Source of the DNA: an uncultured Bacteroidales bacterium | Lineage (GTDB): Bacteria; Bacteroidota; Bacteroidia; Bacteroidales; UBA932 | DNA: 64,000 bases | Direction: 5' to 3' | NCBI GenBank assembly: GCA_945487035.1 | Contig: CALYTI010000007.1 | Location: 1 to 64,000 of the forward strand | In this document: positions 32,617 through 62,718 of the stretch, in pieces | Layout of the letters: each line of letters opens with the position of its first letter | How positions within the stretch are numbered: position 1 is the stretch's first letter | The notes under the pieces: model-generated | Told to the model about the DNA's origin: nothing | The model's database searches: none | Seen by the model: only the letters and a program-made list of their open reading frames with translations | Translations under genes and position numbers: made by a program

Positions 32617-34311
32617 ATGGGTTCTACAGCAGCCATTTCCGCCATACTGACTCTTCTTGCAGGTATAGGTATTTTCCTTGTTGCCTGCCAAATGATGAGT
32701 TCCAATCTTGAGGCGGCAAGTTCCAAAAAACTAAAGCATCTCTTTGCCAAAGCTTCCAAAAGCAAACTTCTCGGTGTTGGTATCGGTACCATCGGTACAG
32801 CTGCAATTCAGAGTTCCGGCGCGACAACGGTAATGACCATAGGTTTTGTCAATGCCGGCATCATCTCGCTCCAACAGGCAGCCACCATAATCTACGGTGC
32901 AAACATAGGTACGACCGTTACCGCGCAGATTGTCGCCCTCGGTATGTTCGGAGGGACCGGAATCTCAACATCGGTAATCTTCTCCGCCTTTGCAGGTATG
33001 GGGGCCTTCCTGAGCCTGTTCTCGAAGAAGAGCAATATGAAGACCCTGGGAGGTATCCTCGCCGGTTTCGGTATGCTTTTCGTCGGACTCAGCCTGATGA
33101 GCGGCTCAATGAAGGATTTCGCAGCTCTTGAAGGAGTAAAGACTTTCCTTGCGTCCATCGGCAATCCTATTCTGCTTGTGCTGATAGGTGCACTGTTTAC
33201 CGCCATCATCCAGAGTTCATCCGTGATGACATCCATTGCGCTTGCAATGGTTGTGAGCGGACTCATCTCGCTTGACCAGGGCATCTTCCTCACTATGGGT
33301 TCCAATATCGGTTCCTGTATCGTAGCGATTCTGGCAGGTATTACCAGCAGCAAAAACGCGAAGCGCACAGCTCTGATTCACCTGATTTTCAACTGTGCCG
33401 GTGTAGTATTCTTTATGCTTGTCAACTGGCTTATGTCCGGACTGAGCCACGGGAACATCACCTTCGGCAACATCTTCAACGCTGCTTTCCCGGGTGCGCC
33501 GCAGACCCAGCTCGCGATGTTCCATACCTTCTTCAACCTCATTACGGTCATCTGTATGCTGCCTCTCACCGACCTGCTCGTGAAGACAGTCATCAGAATG
33601 GTACCTGATGTGCCTCAGGCAGAGGCTGCGGATGCGCCTCACCTTCACTATGTGGACAACAATATGTTGAAGACCCCGCCTATTGCAGTTGACCAGACCA
33701 AGCGCGAAATCGTGCGTATGTCAGAGCTTGCAATGGAGAATTTCAACCGTGCCCTCAGAATAGTCAGCACCCTGTCCTTTGCGGAAAAGGAGACTTTCGA
33801 GAAGACGGAAAACGAGCTCAATTTCATCAACCGTGCCCTCGTGGACTTCGTGGTGAAACTCTCTGAGCAAAAGGGACTCAGCGAACACGACCATATCTAT
33901 CTGGCAACCACCTACCGCACCATCCGCGACCTGGAGCGTATCGGAGACTATGCAGAGAACATTCTCGAATACTCCGAGGCGCTGGCAGAGGATGGAGAAG
34001 GCTTTTCGAAGAAAGCAATCGGGGAGATTGCAACTCTTCAGTCCAAGGTCGGAGACCTCTACAATTTTGCCATCAGGGCATATGAGGATGAAGATCTGGA
34101 TGCTCTTGCCAAGGCAAATGATGTGGAGGAGGAAATCGACGATATCACAAAGGCTATGGAGGACAACCACATCACCCGCCTGAGCGAGGGTGTTTGTACC
34201 GCAAAGGTCGGTGCACAGTATCTGTCCCTCACTTCCAATACCGAGCGTATTGCCGACCACCTTGTGAACGTTGCCAAGTCCATCCGCAGTCTCACCGGCA
34301 TTCAGGCGTAA
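32617..34311 (+). CDS. Na/Pi cotransporter family protein with C-terminal PhoU-like domain
   Basis: GTAAIQSSGATTVMTIGFVNAG and IIQSSSVMTSIALAMV QSS repeats; helical PhoU-like tail. Confidence 0.93.
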   Translation: MGSTAAISAILTLLAGIGIFLVACQMMSSNLEAASSKKLKHLFAKASKSKLLGVGIGTIGTAAIQSSGATTVMTIGFVNAGIISLQQAATIIYGANIGTTVTAQIVALGMFGGTGISTSVIFSAFAGMGAFLSLFSKKSNMKTLGGILAGFGMLFVGLSLMSGSMKDFAALEGVKTFLASIGNPILLVLIGALFTAIIQSSSVMTSIALAMVVSGLISLDQGIFLTMGSNIGSCIVAILAGITSSKNAKRTALIHLIFNCAGVVFFMLVNWLMSGLSHGNITFGNIFNAAFPGAPQTQLAMFHTFFNLITVICMLPLTDLLVKTVIRMVPDVPQAEAADAPHLHYVDNNMLKTPPIAVDQTKREIVRMSELAMENFNRALRIVSTLSFAEKETFEKTENELNFINRALVDFVVKLSEQKGLSEHDHIYLATTYRTIRDLERIGDYAENILEYSEALAEDGEGFSKKAIGEIATLQSKVGDLYNFAIRAYEDEDLDALAKANDVEEEIDDITKAMEDNHITRLSEGVCTAKVGAQYLSLTSNTERIADHLVNVAKSIRSLTGIQA

Positions 34312-55367: not shown

Positions 55368-56969
55368 CTAGAACAGTCCAGGGGTTATGCCGGTCCATTT
55401 GAAGACTGTCGCACCCCAGAGCAGCACGAGCAGCCAGGAGATGACCATCATTGTGAAGCCGAACTTGAACGAATCGGTCTGGCTGTACTGGTTGGTGTTG
55501 TAGAGCAGGGCCGCAGGCTTGCTGTTGAAAGGAAGCACATAGACGTGCTCGATGAGCATGGACACAGGCAGGGCAATGCTCATAGGCATAAAGCCGAAAC
55601 GCTGCTCCACTCCGAGGGCAATAGGGACGAATACCATAGTCCTGATGGTCTTGGACTGGAATACCAGGCCGGAGAAGACCATAAGGGCGGTGAGCACTAC
55701 ATAGAGCACCCAGTAAGGGGTGTCGGCGGTGATTCCCATAGAATCGAAGGCAGCATTTACCATAGTGTTCGGCAGGTCGGTGGCGTTGAGTCCGGATCCG
55801 AGGGTATAGGCACCTGCGGAGAAGAGCATAAGGTGCCAAGGGATATCGACATCGTTCCACTTGACCACGCCCACCTTTGGAAGCAGGGCAATGATGGCAC
55901 CCAGCAGCGCAACTATGGTTTCATCCATATTGTGGAAGGTGCCCTTGGTTACCCAGAGCACGAGCACCAGCACGAAGATGGCCACAGCCTTGATTTCCTC
56001 GGCTGTGATTTTGCCCATTGCGTCAAGCTCTTTCTTCAACCTCTCGAGACCGCCTTCGATTTGAGGAACCTGCTCTTCCTTTTTCATAGGGAAGAACACA
56101 TACATTCCCAGAAGAAGGCCGATAACAAGTATTACCAAACTCATAGGACCGCAGTTCAGCAGCCACTCGGAGTAACCGAAATCGCAGCTTCCCAGGAACC
56201 CCGCTATGAGGCTTATGGCGAGCAGGTGCGCACCTGACCCGGTATAGAAGGCATTGGCTCCGATATTTACCTGGAAGAGGTTCTGGAGCACGAGGTTTCG
56301 TCCGAAATTGTTGCGATTGCCGTCAGATGCTCCATAGATTGCGCATACTACCATAAAAATTGGCAGCATAATGGTTGCCTTTACGGTGGTTGCGGAAATG
56401 AACAGCGAAAGTATGAGGTTAATCAGCAGGAAGCTCCACAGCACTCCCTTCGCGGTCTTTCCGAATTTGATGACAAAGGCAAGGGCGAGGCGCTTTGCGA
56501 ATCTGGTTTTCACCAGCATTGAGGCCAGCACAAAACTCAGAATGTTGAGCCACATCACCGGGTGTCCGAGCTGCGCAAGCGCTTCCTTCTGCCCGGTTAC
56601 CCCGCAGAGCACTACTCCGAGGATAACGAAAAGCGAAGTGAGATAGTTCGGAATGGCTTCTGTCATCCACAGGATAATGGAAGCGACAAAAATCGCGAGC
56701 ATTGCGTAATTGCTGCGCAGGAAGGCATCCAGTCCGATTTCGCCCAACCTCTTGGAGGCCTTGGCGGCAAGGGCGGTCGTATCGAGATTGTCGATAAAAC
56801 CGATGTGGCAGCCCCAGTAGATGAATACGAAGGCTATAAGAGCGAGTGGCGCTCCAAGACGGGCCATCCACTTCTCGAATCCGGTTTTTTCCATCTTCGG
56901 AAGTTTCTCGACCTTGTAGTTGTTCATATCCAGCGGGTCAAATACCGCTTTCCTAGTGTTATCTTCCAT
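55368..56969 (-). CDS. SLC13/DASS-family Na+-coupled anion transporter
   Basis: WMTEAIPNYLTSLFVILG; about 12 TM; central loop as in DASS family. Confidence 0.85.
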   Translation of the reverse strand: MEDNTRKAVFDPLDMNNYKVEKLPKMEKTGFEKWMARLGAPLALIAFVFIYWGCHIGFIDNLDTTALAAKASKRLGEIGLDAFLRSNYAMLAIFVASIILWMTEAIPNYLTSLFVILGVVLCGVTGQKEALAQLGHPVMWLNILSFVLASMLVKTRFAKRLALAFVIKFGKTAKGVLWSFLLINLILSLFISATTVKATIMLPIFMVVCAIYGASDGNRNNFGRNLVLQNLFQVNIGANAFYTGSGAHLLAISLIAGFLGSCDFGYSEWLLNCGPMSLVILVIGLLLGMYVFFPMKKEEQVPQIEGGLERLKKELDAMGKITAEEIKAVAIFVLVLVLWVTKGTFHNMDETIVALLGAIIALLPKVGVVKWNDVDIPWHLMLFSAGAYTLGSGLNATDLPNTMVNAAFDSMGITADTPYWVLYVVLTALMVFSGLVFQSKTIRTMVFVPIALGVEQRFGFMPMSIALPVSMLIEHVYVLPFNSKPAALLYNTNQYSQTDSFKFGFTMMVISWLLVLLWGATVFKWTGITPGLF

Positions 56970-57033: not shown

Positions 57034-57510
57034 CTATTTCCAGTTCTTGTACGGATTCTTCATAAGCATTGAGTTGAAGTACTTCGGGTCTCCGGTAACC
57101 TCCTCACCAAGCCACTCAGGCTTGTCGAAAGGCTCGTTCTCGTCAGCAAGTTCAACTTCTGCCACTACAAGTCCGTCGTTGTCGCCATAGAACTCGTCGA
57201 TTTCCCAGGTGTGGACACCGTCGGTGTTCTTAACGAGGTAACGGGTCTTGTCGATTACGCCCGGCTCTGCGAGCTCGAGAAGTGCGCGTACATCCTCAAC
57301 AGGGATTTCCTTTTCCCACTCGAAGCGTGCAGCTCCGGAGGCATTGCCTATTCCCTTGACGGTGATGAAGCCCTTCTCGCCCTTTACGCGGATGCGTACG
57401 GTGCGCTCAGGCACTGAGCTGAGGTAGCCCTGGGTAATGCGGGTCTGCTTGAAGGCCTCGGCCTTGAAGTCTCCCTTAACAAGGAATTTCTTTTCGATTT
57501 CCTGTGCCAT
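57034..57510 (-). CDS. CYTH-domain protein (triphosphate tunnel metalloenzyme)
   Basis: MAQEIEKKFLV (ExExK signature); TVRIRVKGEKGFITVKG; WEIDEFYGDNDGLVVAEVELADE. Confidence 0.92.
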   Translation of the reverse strand: MAQEIEKKFLVKGDFKAEAFKQTRITQGYLSSVPERTVRIRVKGEKGFITVKGIGNASGAARFEWEKEIPVEDVRALLELAEPGVIDKTRYLVKNTDGVHTWEIDEFYGDNDGLVVAEVELADENEPFDKPEWLGEEVTGDPKYFNSMLMKNPYKNWK

Positions 57511-57512
57511 AA

Positions 57513-58151
57513 CTACTCGTTTGCAAGAGGTTTGTCGGACATACCGATGACACGCTTGATTGCCTGGAGGTAGTTGATGTTCTCCACGCCCTCGAGGTGG
57601 CAGTCAGCGATTGTCTTCTTGATATCCTCGATTTCTGTTGACTCGGAATTGATGGTTACGACCTTTGCACCGTTGATGAGGACATTGCCGACCTCGCAGA
57701 TGGTGTTGTTGACCATATAGCCGAAGCGCTGCTTGTGCACGCGTACGGCTGCAAGGTCAGGGTTGGCCTTCACCATAGCAATGAACTCCTCATAGGTGTA
57801 GCTGTCCTTTGTGAGTTCAGGACATTCTACCATAAATGCAGGATATACCTCATTGCGGAGTACCTCTGCGCTGATTGGGAATTCTCCCTTCATCAGCGGG
57901 TTCCACTGCTCGAGTCCGTCAACGGACTGCACGAAGGTTTTGATATCCATCTTGCCGTCACGAATCTTGGTGTTGTTGATATCGTTCTTGGCTGAGATGA
58001 TATAGATTTCGTCGCTGTGCCTCTCCCATACTTTCTCAGGAACCGGCGCAGAAAGACGTGCCATCCTTTTGTGTGCCTCGCAGAAGCACTGTCCGAAGCT
58101 GCGGAATTCGAAGCGTGGCTTCGAAATTTCGCCGATTTTAAGCTCTGCCAT
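57513..58151 (-). CDS. Divergent CYTH-like protein
   Basis: RFEFRSFGQ...SDEIYIISAKNDINNTKIRDGKMDIKTFVQSVDGLEQW resembles a CYTH tunnel; adjacent to a canonical CYTH gene. Confidence 0.6.
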   Translation of the reverse strand: MAELKIGEISKPRFEFRSFGQCFCEAHKRMARLSAPVPEKVWERHSDEIYIISAKNDINNTKIRDGKMDIKTFVQSVDGLEQWNPLMKGEFPISAEVLRNEVYPAFMVECPELTKDSYTYEEFIAMVKANPDLAAVRVHKQRFGYMVNNTICEVGNVLINGAKVVTINSESTEIEDIKKTIADCHLEGVENINYLQAIKRVIGMSDKPLANE

Positions 58152-58159
58152 TGTTCAGA

Positions 58160-58777
58160 CTAAATATTATCCTGTTTGATATCAGCAACCTTTTCTCCGT
58201 TTGCAGCACCCGGGGTAGAATCAGCATAAGCCCACTCTCCGGTTCCGTCAGGGCAACGGCTGAATGAGTGCTTCTTGTCGTTCTCGTAACCTGAAACCTG
58301 GTTCCATCCTGAACCTTCCTCACCGCGAACGAAAGAGTCAAGCACCTTGCCTGATGCGTCGCAAAGCTCAATCTTCACATTCTTCTTGCCTGAAAGACCG
58401 CCTTTGAAAACGTGGTTCTCGCTCTGGTACTCATAGTTAGGGTCACCGCCTTCTGCCTCATCAGCGAGATCTGAGCTCTCGAGGTAAATCCAAGCCTTGG
58501 CAGGAAGCTTCATTCCTGCAGCACCTGTCCAGGTTGTGCTCTTTCCACCATCCTTGGTAGAATCATACTTGACGATTTGAACACCTTCGAGAGAAACCTC
58601 CTTGTCGGTAATGTTGTAAATCTCGATGAACTTGTTGTTGGCGTCAAGCTCGTTGAGAACGATTCCGGATACGGAGTCCTTGCCGCCGTCGGTCTTGTCA
58701 TCAGTCTCGAAACCGTTCTTGTTGCAGGAAACAAGTGCGAGGGCAGCCATTGCTGCAATTGCAAAATACTTTTTCAT
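58160..58777 (-). CDS. Lamin-tail-domain lipoprotein
   Basis: Lipobox ALVSCN; GIVLNELDANNKFIEIYNITDKEVSLEGVQIV...STPGAANG. Confidence 0.85.
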   Translation of the reverse strand: MKKYFAIAAMAALALVSCNKNGFETDDKTDGGKDSVSGIVLNELDANNKFIEIYNITDKEVSLEGVQIVKYDSTKDGGKSTTWTGAAGMKLPAKAWIYLESSDLADEAEGGDPNYEYQSENHVFKGGLSGKKNVKIELCDASGKVLDSFVRGEEGSGWNQVSGYENDKKHSFSRCPDGTGEWAYADSTPGAANGEKVADIKQDNI

Positions 58778-58813: not shown

Positions 58814-60226
58814 TTAGAATGCGACCTGGAAACGGCAGGCAAGCATTGAGTAGCAAATGCCGGTATTGCCTACAATCTGTGAAGGAACCTTGCACTTGTT
58901 GCCGTCGGCGTCATAACCTACGAACCACTTTGCAGCCTCGTCGGTACCGTCGTTGGCTCCCTTACCGTTTGCATACTTGTCGTTGATGTTGTACTGGTAG
59001 TTGATGACGAACTTCACATTCTTGGTCGGGTAGAAGTTCAGACCGAGTGTGAAGGCCTGGGCGCTACCTCCGGCGTAGTACTTCGAGCAGTTGAAGTCTG
59101 CCACCTCGTAACGGGCGCAGAGCTCAACATCTCCCCAGCTTCTGCCTGGATTGATACGGGTGTACTTGCCGCCCTTGGAATCGTAGTTCTGCTGGCCGCC
59201 GAAAAGAAGCCAACCTGCCTGAACATACCATCCGTCTGCAGTTTGAGGACCAAGTTCATCCTTAGGGATGACGGTCTTCTCAGGATTGAGATATGCGGAA
59301 CGGGCAATGTAGGCACCTTCATAGCGGAGCTGCTTCCAGTGTCCGGCAAGCTCGATTGTGTAGGCAAGCTCGTGGTCAAGACCCTTGATGGCATCTGTAT
59401 CGAGGAACTTCTTGCGGTTGATGGAGGTAGAGTTGCGGCTTGAATAGCGGGTTGCGTTGTAGCCGTCGGTAGAGGTGAGCTTAGGCTCGCGATAAGAAAC
59501 GGCTGCTCCGATATGCAGGGATGAGGTCTGGTTGTTGATAGGACGGATAGCCACCTTACCGGTGTAGGAAAGTCCCTCATTGAGACCGTAATCCTTGTTG
59601 CCGTCTTCCATACAGGTCATTTCCTCGCTGCTCTTGAGCTCAGGGCCGAAAACACCGCCGCTCACCCAAACGAGAGGACAGCTCCAGGTTGCAGCAATTC
59701 CCATATGGCGGGATGGAGCAAGAGATGTCACCATAGGGCGCTCCATAAACTGGAGATAACGGGAAGTGGTGTTTCTCTGAATCGAGAAATTTTCCTTGAA
59801 GTTACCCAACTTGATGGAAAGATTAGGAACCCCGGTGTACTCGAGAATTGCATCCTTGAGTTCAGGAGTACCGCTGGTCCAGTCGGAGTCGATTTCACCG
59901 TACCAGTTCTTGTCAAGCTGAGCCTTGACAGCGAAACGGGTACGACGCATACTCATACCATTACCAATCTTGACGAGATTCTTGTCATAGCCGAAGTAAA
60001 CGGCAGCATCGCCCTGAACACGGATATCAAACCACATCTTGTAGTTTGCCTGCTTGTTCTGAAACACCAGGATACCGTCCTGCAGTTTAGCGTTAACAGG
60101 AATCGATTGAACTATCTGTCCGTACTGATTGTACTGGAATTCTTCCTGTACTTCCTGTACGTGCTGTGCATTGGCTGAAACCGCAAAAGCGAGCAAAGCA
60201 GCCGAAACAAACAATACTTTCTTCAT
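58814..60226 (-). CDS. OprO/OprP-like porin
   Basis: Signal peptide; LGNFKENFSIQRNTTSRYLQFMERPMVTSLAPSRHMGI; YNINDKYANG C-terminal strands. Confidence 0.8.
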   Translation of the reverse strand: MKKVLFVSAALLAFAVSANAQHVQEVQEEFQYNQYGQIVQSIPVNAKLQDGILVFQNKQANYKMWFDIRVQGDAAVYFGYDKNLVKIGNGMSMRRTRFAVKAQLDKNWYGEIDSDWTSGTPELKDAILEYTGVPNLSIKLGNFKENFSIQRNTTSRYLQFMERPMVTSLAPSRHMGIAATWSCPLVWVSGGVFGPELKSSEEMTCMEDGNKDYGLNEGLSYTGKVAIRPINNQTSSLHIGAAVSYREPKLTSTDGYNATRYSSRNSTSINRKKFLDTDAIKGLDHELAYTIELAGHWKQLRYEGAYIARSAYLNPEKTVIPKDELGPQTADGWYVQAGWLLFGGQQNYDSKGGKYTRINPGRSWGDVELCARYEVADFNCSKYYAGGSAQAFTLGLNFYPTKNVKFVINYQYNINDKYANGKGANDGTDEAAKWFVGYDADGNKCKVPSQIVGNTGICYSMLACRFQVAF

Positions 60227-60263: not shown

Positions 60264-61799
60264 TCATAACGCTTTGATGAAGTCAATCAGATTCTGGCTC
60301 CGGGTCAGTCCCAGTTTCTTGCGCAGGCGGTGCCTCTCCACCTCCACCGACTTGGGCGAAATGCCGAGCAGGGCGGCGATGTATTTGGTCGAGAACTCAA
60401 GCCGCAGCAAAGTCGCGAGTTTGCGCTCCTGTGCGGAAAGCTGAGGGCACTTGATGCTCAGTCTTGCGGTGAAATCCTGATGCAGAGCCTCCACCTTGTT
60501 GTAGAAGTCCGTCCTTTCGTCCTGCGAATTGCGCCTCAGGCCCAGACTTGCCTTTATTTCGTGAAGCAGTTCATCCTTGCGTGCGGGGTCAGAGCTCATT
60601 TCCGCTTCGGCCACCTTGCCGTAGAGTTCGTCGATAAACTCGCTCTGCTCGCTTATTCTTTCGGCAATGGACATTGCATCACGCCTTCGGAGTTCGAGAA
60701 GATTCTGCAGATGCTCATTCTCCACCTGCATAGAATGGACTTTCAGCTCGTTGAGCCTGCGATAGCTCTCATCCTCGCTCCTGTCCACCTTCGCAGGCCT
60801 TGATTTCAAAGCTCTTACCAGCAGGGCAAGCAACACGCAGCAGGCAATGGCAAAAAGTCCTGCCACCGCTTCCGCCACATCCGGAGTCCTTCCATAACCG
60901 ACACTTGAAACCACTGCACAAAGGGTAAAAGCGCTCAAAGCGGAGAAAAAAGGAGCCACCAAAACGGAAACTGTGATTTCGCCTACGCGGAAATTGCGCG
61001 CCCCGGCAAGTGCACACAACATCACCACGGAAGGAGATACTATGGTGCCTCTGGCAAAAACAAGCATGGAAAGCGCAGAAGCTATGACACAGGCAAGCGA
61101 AGTGGCGGCATCCATATCGAAAAACTCTTCGCGGAGGCTGGAAACCCTGAGTTTGACATTGGGGCTCAGCAGAGCAAAACAAGCCAGAGCAAGCGCAGAT
61201 CCGATGAGGATACCGGCAGAACTCAGGTTGCCCGCAAATGCAATGCTCAGCAGCCCGGACAGATTCATTCCGACCGCAAAAAGCAGAACAAAGGCAGCAA
61301 CGCTCATAAAAGCCCCCAGTCTGGAAAGTTTCAACAGCAGATGCACATTGGAATTGAGTACAATCCTTTGCAGAAGCCTTGAGAACATGACGCCAAGAAC
61401 CAGTGCCAGAACCATTGAAGCCAGCCATTGGAGCGGAATCCACATTATGTCCGAGTCAGTAATACCGTAGTACAGCTGAGTTCCGACAAGGGCCGCAGTC
61501 AGCGAAGGCAGAACGGCAGAAGGCTGCCCTATCAGATGCAGCACTAAGACAACAACGAGTGCCGAGCTTACTGCAACGGGGACAGAGGCTGACGACAGAT
61601 CAATGGTAAACTGTTCCAGGTCTCCAAGCTCCGTACCAAGCAGCAGGCCTGCTCCCGATGCCAATAGCATCAAAGGGAGAATCAACCTGCGGGGCAGCGA
61701 AAAGCAAGTCGCCACCGGTGCAAGGGACATAGGCAGTTCCCAAAGGATTACGGCCGAGAAGAGCAAGGCCGTAAACAATGAGGCAATCAGTAGTTCCAT
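60264..61799 (-). CDS. PiT-like membrane domain fused to coiled coil and LuxR-type HTH (putative phosphate-responsive regulator)
   Basis: Residues ~1-330 hydrophobic with two PiT-like halves (GQPSAVLPSLTAALVG; AAFVLLFAVGMNLSGLLSIAFAG); C-terminal LSAQERKLATLLRLEFSTKYIAALLGISPKSVEVERHRLRKKLGL; 1 nt after the DUF47 gene. Confidence 0.65.
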   Translation of the reverse strand: MELLIASLFTALLFSAVILWELPMSLAPVATCFSLPRRLILPLMLLASGAGLLLGTELGDLEQFTIDLSSASVPVAVSSALVVVLVLHLIGQPSAVLPSLTAALVGTQLYYGITDSDIMWIPLQWLASMVLALVLGVMFSRLLQRIVLNSNVHLLLKLSRLGAFMSVAAFVLLFAVGMNLSGLLSIAFAGNLSSAGILIGSALALACFALLSPNVKLRVSSLREEFFDMDAATSLACVIASALSMLVFARGTIVSPSVVMLCALAGARNFRVGEITVSVLVAPFFSALSAFTLCAVVSSVGYGRTPDVAEAVAGLFAIACCVLLALLVRALKSRPAKVDRSEDESYRRLNELKVHSMQVENEHLQNLLELRRRDAMSIAERISEQSEFIDELYGKVAEAEMSSDPARKDELLHEIKASLGLRRNSQDERTDFYNKVEALHQDFTARLSIKCPQLSAQERKLATLLRLEFSTKYIAALLGISPKSVEVERHRLRKKLGLTRSQNLIDFIKAL

Positions 61800-61800
61800 A

Positions 61801-62445
61801 TCATATGATTCTGCGTATGGACATTACAGACAGCTGGTCTGCAACCTTGAGTGCTTCCTGGGAGAGTTCCTCAATGTGGAGAGCAAAATACCGGAGATGA
61901 AACTTCTCGGAAAGTTTGAGCTTGTCCATTTCGTGGAAAACTTTTCGTTTGAGAATCTTTGCCTGGGTATCAGCTTCTTTCTGGAAGAAATATACGCGAT
62001 GTACCATATCCGGCACTGAATCCGGGGTCTTGAAATAGGCCTTGGATGCAGGAATGGTCGTGGACATAGCTTCCGTACTGAGTTCCATCAGCTTGAGAAA
62101 ATCAGCGTTCAGCTCCACAGGAATGTGCGGAGTCTCGATTTCGAACTGATAGAGGTTGTTGTTGAGGGTGTCTAGGACGTGGTCCATACGCTCAAGAAGT
62201 CTGAGAATATCACCGCGGGGGCGGCTCAGACTGTTTCTGCGGTAAAGGTCTGCCTCGATGTCTCTTCGGAGCATCTCGGCATCAGACTCAAGCCTGGTAA
62301 TTGACTGAAGATTGCCGCTGAGAGCATCATCATTATGGTAAATGTAGTTCTTGACACCTTCGATAAAAACCAGTAGTGATTGATCAACTATATCAAAGAA
62401 CTTGTCAAGGCGCCCAATTGTTTCTTTTGTTTTTCTGTTGAACAT
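61801..62445 (-). CDS. DUF47 family (PhoU-like, PiT accessory) protein
   Basis: MFNRKTKETIGRLDKFFDIVDQSLLVFIEGVKNYI...RLLERMDHVLDTLNNNLYQFEIETP. Confidence 0.88.
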   Translation of the reverse strand: MFNRKTKETIGRLDKFFDIVDQSLLVFIEGVKNYIYHNDDALSGNLQSITRLESDAEMLRRDIEADLYRRNSLSRPRGDILRLLERMDHVLDTLNNNLYQFEIETPHIPVELNADFLKLMELSTEAMSTTIPASKAYFKTPDSVPDMVHRVYFFQKEADTQAKILKRKVFHEMDKLKLSEKFHLRYFALHIEELSQEALKVADQLSVMSIRRII

Positions 62446-62582
62446 AACCTTGTTGTGCAAATATGGGTTAATGATTCTGCATTTCAAAGAGTCCGCGCGC
62501 GTACACACGCAAGACAAAGAAGTACTTGTTAAGTTGTTTTGAAGAGTTAATTATATTGATTTATAATTGTTTATATACATAA

Positions 62583-62634
62583 GTGTAAAGTTGTTGTCTT
62601 TACTTCCACAAATTTACACAAAGTAATTGTAAAG
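62583..62634. promoter_or_regulatory. Nested inverted repeats in the DUF47-hppA divergent intergenic region
   Basis: GTGTAAA (62583-62589)/TTTACAC (62613-62619); CTTTAC (62598-62603)/GTAAAG (62629-62634). Confidence 0.4.
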
Positions 62635-62687
62635 AAAAAAGTTTAACAAAATTTTCTCCGGCTGCTCGGATTTCGCGCGTATATGCG

Positions 62688-62695
62688 TACCTTTG
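62688..62695 (+). promoter_or_regulatory. Putative -7 element (TACCTTTG) upstream of hppA
   Basis: TAnnTTTG match 24 bp upstream of ATG 62719. Confidence 0.5.
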
Positions 62696-62718
62696 TTGAA
62701 GATTAATTAGGTTTAACA

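Follow-up and report, generated by a model that had tools for sequence, protein, structure and literature searches.

A PiT-family oxyanion transporter of the Bacteroidales, joined to a TM-coiled coil-LuxR HTH tail, is likely to have become a membrane-tethered, autoregulating one-component regulator, which in the clade analysed here is likely to have decayed to a receptor. In the window (the whole stretch of 64,000 nucleotides that was analysed), the protein concerned probably works as a gene switch, anchored in the membrane, that controls a conserved phosphate/polyphosphate operon of this gut bacterium. In the proposed mechanism, the transporter would have gained its tail within the Bacteroidales, and the transport motifs would then have decayed in the window clade. 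The PiT-like domain, together with a PhoU-like DUF47 protein, would sense anion supply, most likely that of phosphate. The last TM helix and the coiled coil would relay the signal, with dimerisation as the probable means, to the HTH in the cytoplasm. The HTH would bind a tandem repeat of 11-bp period upstream of the DUF47 gene and control its own operon. Points against this account include the absence of any experiment, the long branch of the window copy and the weakness of the repeat in the window.

The protein and its parts are located as follows.

60264..61799, minus strand: degenerate PiT - coiled coil - LuxR HTH protein, 511 aa (ORF; Pfam; TmPiT profile and fold matches)
60801..61799, minus strand: PiT-like membrane domain, residues ~1-333 (PHO4 E=0.0075; AlphaFold; Foldseek best PDB match 6l85; positive charges past the last TM)
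60482..60800, minus strand: coiled coil / helical linker, residues ~334-439 (AlphaFold helices 306-401 and 405-439; homology to other Bacteroidota TM-coiled coil-HTH tails)
60279..60443, minus strand: LuxR/GerE HTH, residues 453-507 (GerE 6.6e-7, above cut-off)

The first-pass annotation had described a 511-aa ORF with a multi-TM N-terminus, a coiled coil and a C-terminal LuxR-type HTH, and this architecture was confirmed by the intact reading frame, the AlphaFold helices and the GerE match (29.3 bits vs a Pfam cut-off of 23.5). In the AlphaFold model (pLDDT 86), the N-terminal ~333 aa were multi-helical and were followed by a long helix/coiled coil at 306-439. About 11 membrane helices lay N-terminal to the HTH, which fits the 10-12 TM criterion of DadR-type multi-TM LuxR regulators. 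Residues 306-333 were predicted to form an extra TM helix that closes the PiT-like domain and takes the tail into the cytoplasm. The HTH was predicted to be cytoplasmic because seven K/R residues were found in the stretch past the last TM and none in loop 54-71.

Homology of the window N-terminus to PiT (PF01384) can be considered settled on the basis of sequence and structural model comparisons. The window protein alone matched PF01384 (PHO4) only over residues 70-317 with E=0.0075, below the Pfam cut-off, and several relatives had no PHO4 match at all, as would be expected if the N-terminus belonged to an unrelated membrane sensor family and resembled PiT by chance. However, less degenerate members with the same gene order were found by a PHO4 search of 101 congeneric genomes. 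The same-genus orthologue L044 reached 1.8e-11 (44.1 bits vs a cut-off of 33.7) and carried GerE in the same polypeptide. Six full-length relatives from the same genus (25-29% identity) displayed the same architecture and had DUF47 and porin genes as neighbours. A profile restricted to 63 degenerate sequences matched TmPiT (6L85) better than any other PDB sequence (1e-7), and the match rose to 1.3e-30 with intact relatives added. Foldseek of an AlphaFold model built on the 63 degenerate sequences (pLDDT 86.3) also gave TmPiT 6L85 as the best PDB match (probability 1.00, TM 0.54 on target, E 3.9e-3). Since intermediates, profile searches and fold search agree, the homology is secure; chance likeness to PiT is ruled out by the L044 intermediate and the TmPiT matches, and is contradicted by the coiled coil-HTH tree as well. 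The PiT likeness noticed in the first-pass annotation, which had named assignment to another sensor family by profile or fold as a refutation, thus held: both methods returned PiT (TmPiT) and no other sensor family. In the window genome (1.94 Mb, 89.9% complete), DUF47 occurred once and a PHO4 search gave no significant match.

Decay of the PiT domain and order of events

The alignment placed QPSAVLPSLTAALVG on PVSTSQAIVGAIIG and GMNLSGLLS on the GANNIANVM helix, in agreement with the motif assignments made at first pass. The window protein displayed WELPM for NDASN, PSAVLP for PVSTSQ, GMNL for GANN and IVSPSV for PVSSTQ, and so did not meet the criterion of GANDxAN-type and P-x-S-[ST]-x-[HQ] signature motifs. 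This comparison rests on family motifs, without mapping of the TmPiT ligand residues. Throughout the degenerate clade (n=63), motif 1 had mostly lost its two Asn, and the two P-x-S loops their hydroxyl residues. The earlier statement that catalytic-looking residues are gone was therefore right for the signature as a whole but too broad, since an acidic D/E was kept at the GANDAAN Asp (position 21) in 60/63 and Asn179 in 62/63. D228 and P23 were new conserved features specific to the clade. Judging from these retained and newly conserved residues, the degenerate domain looks re-purposed and not merely rotting. Because part of the signature residues persists, residual transport is not excluded. 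The window protein descends from PiT, but its motifs do not justify classification as a functional PiT transporter, loss of transport being an inference.

The same residues would also fit a protein that is still primarily a transporter in all lineages, that of the window among them; the altered domain would then carry another anion, and the role of the HTH would be limited to tuning the expression of its own operon. PF01384 also covers permeases for other anions. This reading is weakened by the loss of most of the motif 1 Asn pair and P-x-S hydroxyls and by the presence of another Pi importer in all ten genomes checked, and we consider it unlikely, although it deserves to be kept in mind.

The N-terminal profile was searched across 393 genomes of the order Bacteroidales. 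Relatives of ~580 aa carried intact PiT motifs (GANDAANVFG, PVSTSQAIVG, GANNIANVMG and PVSSTQVVIG) and the same coiled coil-HTH tail; one intact fusion, L074, matched PHO4 at 5e-58 in addition to GerE. Partly decayed fusions had motif 1 forms such as GTNDTLN, GSKDTVN and GAQGASN, and standalone PiTs of the same subfamily were also present. With a full-length profile, 24 full-length fusions were detected in the 393-genome sample, one of them with an interrupting stop. No PiT-HTH fusion was seen in 396 genomes sampled across the phylum, in which other orders combined DUF47 with a standalone PiT and usually with a porin. An apparent DUF47-PiT-HTH single gene (L137:3242-5380) was rejected as an assembly artefact with a run of N at the junction.

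Fusion to the HTH came first and PiT decay later, as was established by sequence comparison, because intact PiT-HTH fusions occur in many other Bacteroidales. The coiled coil-HTH tree placed the degenerate clade inside the intact fusions (100/100, 98/83, 100/90). In the DUF47 tree, re-rooted on other orders, the degenerate sequences formed a single clade (100/98) among or next to fused operons. Rooting on the second, canonical DUF47 was dropped, as the outgroup branch was far too long. HTH presence on the DUF47 tree required six changes, so that more than one loss or gain of the tail has to be assumed. The first-pass inference that a transporter partner had turned into a sensor-regulator is supported by PiT descent and motif loss; the HTH, however, had been fused before the decay, and regulation and the phosphate signal are still inferred. 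The evidence leaves it evenly balanced, in our judgement, whether the ~580-aa fusions are both working PiT transporters and DNA-binding factors for their own operon, with the window clade as the next step, a pure receptor that kept operon and operator.

The window copy is fast-evolving: its branch in the coiled coil-HTH tree measures 1.05, against 0.11 for its sister. Such a long branch and the weak window element could mean that the gene is a decaying relic under relaxed selection, with transport lost and no role left. However, the open frame and gene order are intact, the HTH scores above cut-off, and the coiled coil-HTH columns are strongly conserved over 63 relatives including the window copy. 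A relic is thus very unlikely, and a receptor-like regulator remains the preferred interpretation.

In other Bacteroidota orders (L169-L177), the PiT of the DUF47-PiT-porin cluster had a ~140-aa C-terminal extension and no HTH; the extension had no Pfam match in L175, the sole one tested. A separate ~746-aa PiT-like transporter was present in the window's genus (L049-L052, L055). It adjoined a PhoB/PhoR-like two-component pair, not DUF47, in four of the five loci viewed.

The seven-gene operon

The protein is encoded in an operon with the order DUF47, PiT-HTH, OprO/P porin, LTD protein, two triphosphate-tunnel proteins and DASS symporter. Apart from the PiT-HTH gene, its members in the window are the following.

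61801..62445, minus strand: DUF47 / PhoU_div protein (PF01865), first operon gene (48.9 bits vs a cut-off of 24.4)
58814..60226, minus strand: OprO/P-type outer-membrane porin (PF07396 5.4e-32), conserved neighbour
58160..58777, minus strand: lamin-tail-domain (LTD) lipoprotein (PF00932 2.8e-12), 62/64 loci
57513..58151, minus strand: p212, no Pfam family, triphosphate-tunnel-metalloenzyme fold (AlphaFold and Foldseek, best match AtTTM3 1.1e-6), 64/64 loci
57034..57510, minus strand: CYTH (triphosphate tunnel) protein (PF01928 4e-15), 64/64 loci
55368..56969, minus strand: DASS-family sodium-coupled anion symporter (PF00939 9.1e-53; TIGR00785 above cut-off), 54/64 loci

The DUF47 gene ends 1 nt ahead of the start codon of the 511-aa ORF on the same strand (61801 vs 61799), as noted at first pass. 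Conservation was analysed in 80 named-record loci from rumen and gut MAGs, Candidatus Cryptobacteroides, Tidjanibacter, Rikenellaceae and Bacteroidales bacterium CF. DUF47 was located immediately 5' in all 78 relatives with 5' sequence, the remaining two loci being cut by contig ends, and the porin directly 3' in every locus having sequence there. Homologues never adjoining DUF47 would have refuted the first-pass proposal of a DUF47 pairing, which therefore stands as to adjacency; the conserved unit is, however, a seven-gene operon and not a pair. Identical seven-gene order was observed in 14/14 larger neighbourhoods from many families, whether the PiT was intact, partial or degenerate.

The porin, the two triphosphate-tunnel folds and the anion symporter suggest, by inference, a phosphate/polyphosphate locus. 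Phosphate as signal or ligand is not established and another oxyanion is possible, because PF01384 also contains sulfate permeases; a weak CysP-type match (sulfate permease) was seen. The other Pi importer in the ten genus genomes carrying the protein was PF02690 in eight and a canonical PiT in two, and no PstC was found above cut-off in the same ten.

Several further observations were made on these loci. The PF02690 and canonical PiT importers were mutually exclusive among the ten genus genomes (eight vs two), and the window itself encodes a Na/Pi cotransporter (PF02690) at 32671-33477 on the plus strand. p212 was 83-94% identical over nine diverse genomes, while the PiT-HTH of the same operon was only 25-30% identical. 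A membrane H+-pyrophosphatase gene (PF03030; 62719-63999, plus strand) and the operon are divergently oriented in the window. Among the 71 relatives whose upstream sequence was long enough, this gene was not conserved as a neighbour. In many intact-fusion loci, a 488-aa protein without Pfam match (L236:11570-13033) was encoded 3' of the DASS gene.

The tandem repeat upstream of the operon

A tandem repeat of 11-bp period, ACTCTACAAWAACTCTAYA, was detected ahead of the operon in relatives. Exact AACTCTACAA was present upstream of DUF47 in 67/78 loci, usually as a tandem repeat with 11-bp period. The best dyad occurred in 44 of 57 non-redundant upstream regions, compared with at most five for any dyad in shuffled sequence. 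An inverted-repeat operator was rejected, as no palindrome was enriched and the conserved element is a direct repeat. With at most two mismatches, ACTCTACAAWAACTCTAYA had one site per genome in seven of ten genus genomes, each on the operon contig just 5' of DUF47, and the reversed control pattern gave one match across all ten. The other three genomes, the window's included, had no site at this threshold.

A PWM built from the degenerate clade found sites (p<=0.05) upstream of 13/24 intact or partial fusions vs 0/21 standalone-PiT operons (Fisher 3.7e-5, uncorrected for relatedness). Most of the best PWM sites in these fusions were at -201 to -219 on the same strand. In the window, the element is weak.

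62446..62718, minus strand: operon leader region, repeat element weak here

The best PWM site in this leader was at about 62525-62551 (p=0.033), and a repeat-like stretch with six mismatches was at about 62617-62635.

Most simply, the tandem repeat can be read as an operator for the fused HTH, although this reading comes from comparison only and there are no binding data. DNA binding, the sign of regulation and transcriptional regulation itself are thus inferred. LuxR-type HTHs usually bind inverted and not direct repeats, which counts against this reading. The known boxes of PhoB-type response regulators are 11-bp direct repeats. Given this resemblance and the lack of binding data, the repeat might instead be the site of another, unlinked regulator (e.g., PhoB-type), with the fused HTH acting elsewhere or not on DNA. 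A regulon-wide box would be expected at several genes, but in seven genomes there was one site per genome and only at this operon; moreover, the element tracks the HTH fusion and not DUF47-PiT operons generally. An unlinked regulator is thus improbable, if still conceivable, and a general Pho box is unsupported by the one site per genome, only sites with at most two mismatches having been counted. A TAnnTTTG/-33 pattern was seen downstream of the repeat in about a dozen loci and was absent in most. Its placement is compatible with an activator site but was not taken as evidence, because most loci lack the pattern.

Comparison with known systems

The nearest known analogues are the 12-TM LuxR regulators DadR, HcdR and CadR of Eggerthella lenta, which the accessible part of their report describes as genetically shown transmembrane transcriptional activators of neighbouring genes (PMC9734109). 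They share with the window protein a multi-pass membrane domain and a C-terminal LuxR HTH in one chain, a likeness of architecture only, as the sequences were not compared. They differ in belonging to another phylum and in having no DUF47 or porin operon described in the accessible text, which draws no link between the membrane domain and PiT and lacks the word 'transporter' (PMC9734109). PiT transporters (PF01384; TmPiT, PDB 6L85) have a homologous membrane domain and fold and a DUF47 partner, whereas the window protein has an extra TM-coiled coil-HTH tail and its clade has largely lost the signature motifs. Bacteroidota TM-coiled coil-HTH regulators, including the NCBIfam BT3442 family, have a homologous coiled coil-HTH tail, but their N-terminal parts are not PiT (570-1000-aa frames matching the tail only).

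In CadC and ToxR, a single TM is combined with a sensor in the periplasm. Transmembrane transcription regulators of this type are, from the part of the source available, one-component, membrane-tethered DNA-binding proteins abundant in Bacteroidia, and no PiT domain is described in that part (PMC10269533). The window protein is likewise one-component, membrane-tethered and putatively DNA-binding, and differs in that its sensor candidate is a transporter fold. No report of a PiT-LuxR fusion or of the operon was found in the literature, most subscription journals being outside the search. The PiT-HTH fusion can thus be classed as a multi-TM LuxR regulator, a known kind, with an unusual origin, of which no PiT version was found reported.

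DUF47 is annotated elsewhere as 'Pit accessory protein' (PMC8269224). If our account is true, it would provide DUF47/PhoU-like proteins, the function of which next to PiT is unclear, with a partner that has a readable transcriptional output. It would also identify a regulator of a conserved phosphate/polyphosphate locus in Bacteroidales from rumen and gut. The idea is directly testable, since a candidate operator sequence is available. Arguments on how transporters turn into receptors usually start from end points, e.g., the yeast sensors Snf3/Rgt2 and bacterial UhpC. For PiT, living genomes appear to preserve the successive stages, all within a single conserved operon: plain PiT, PiT with a DNA-binding tail, partly decayed and fully decayed.
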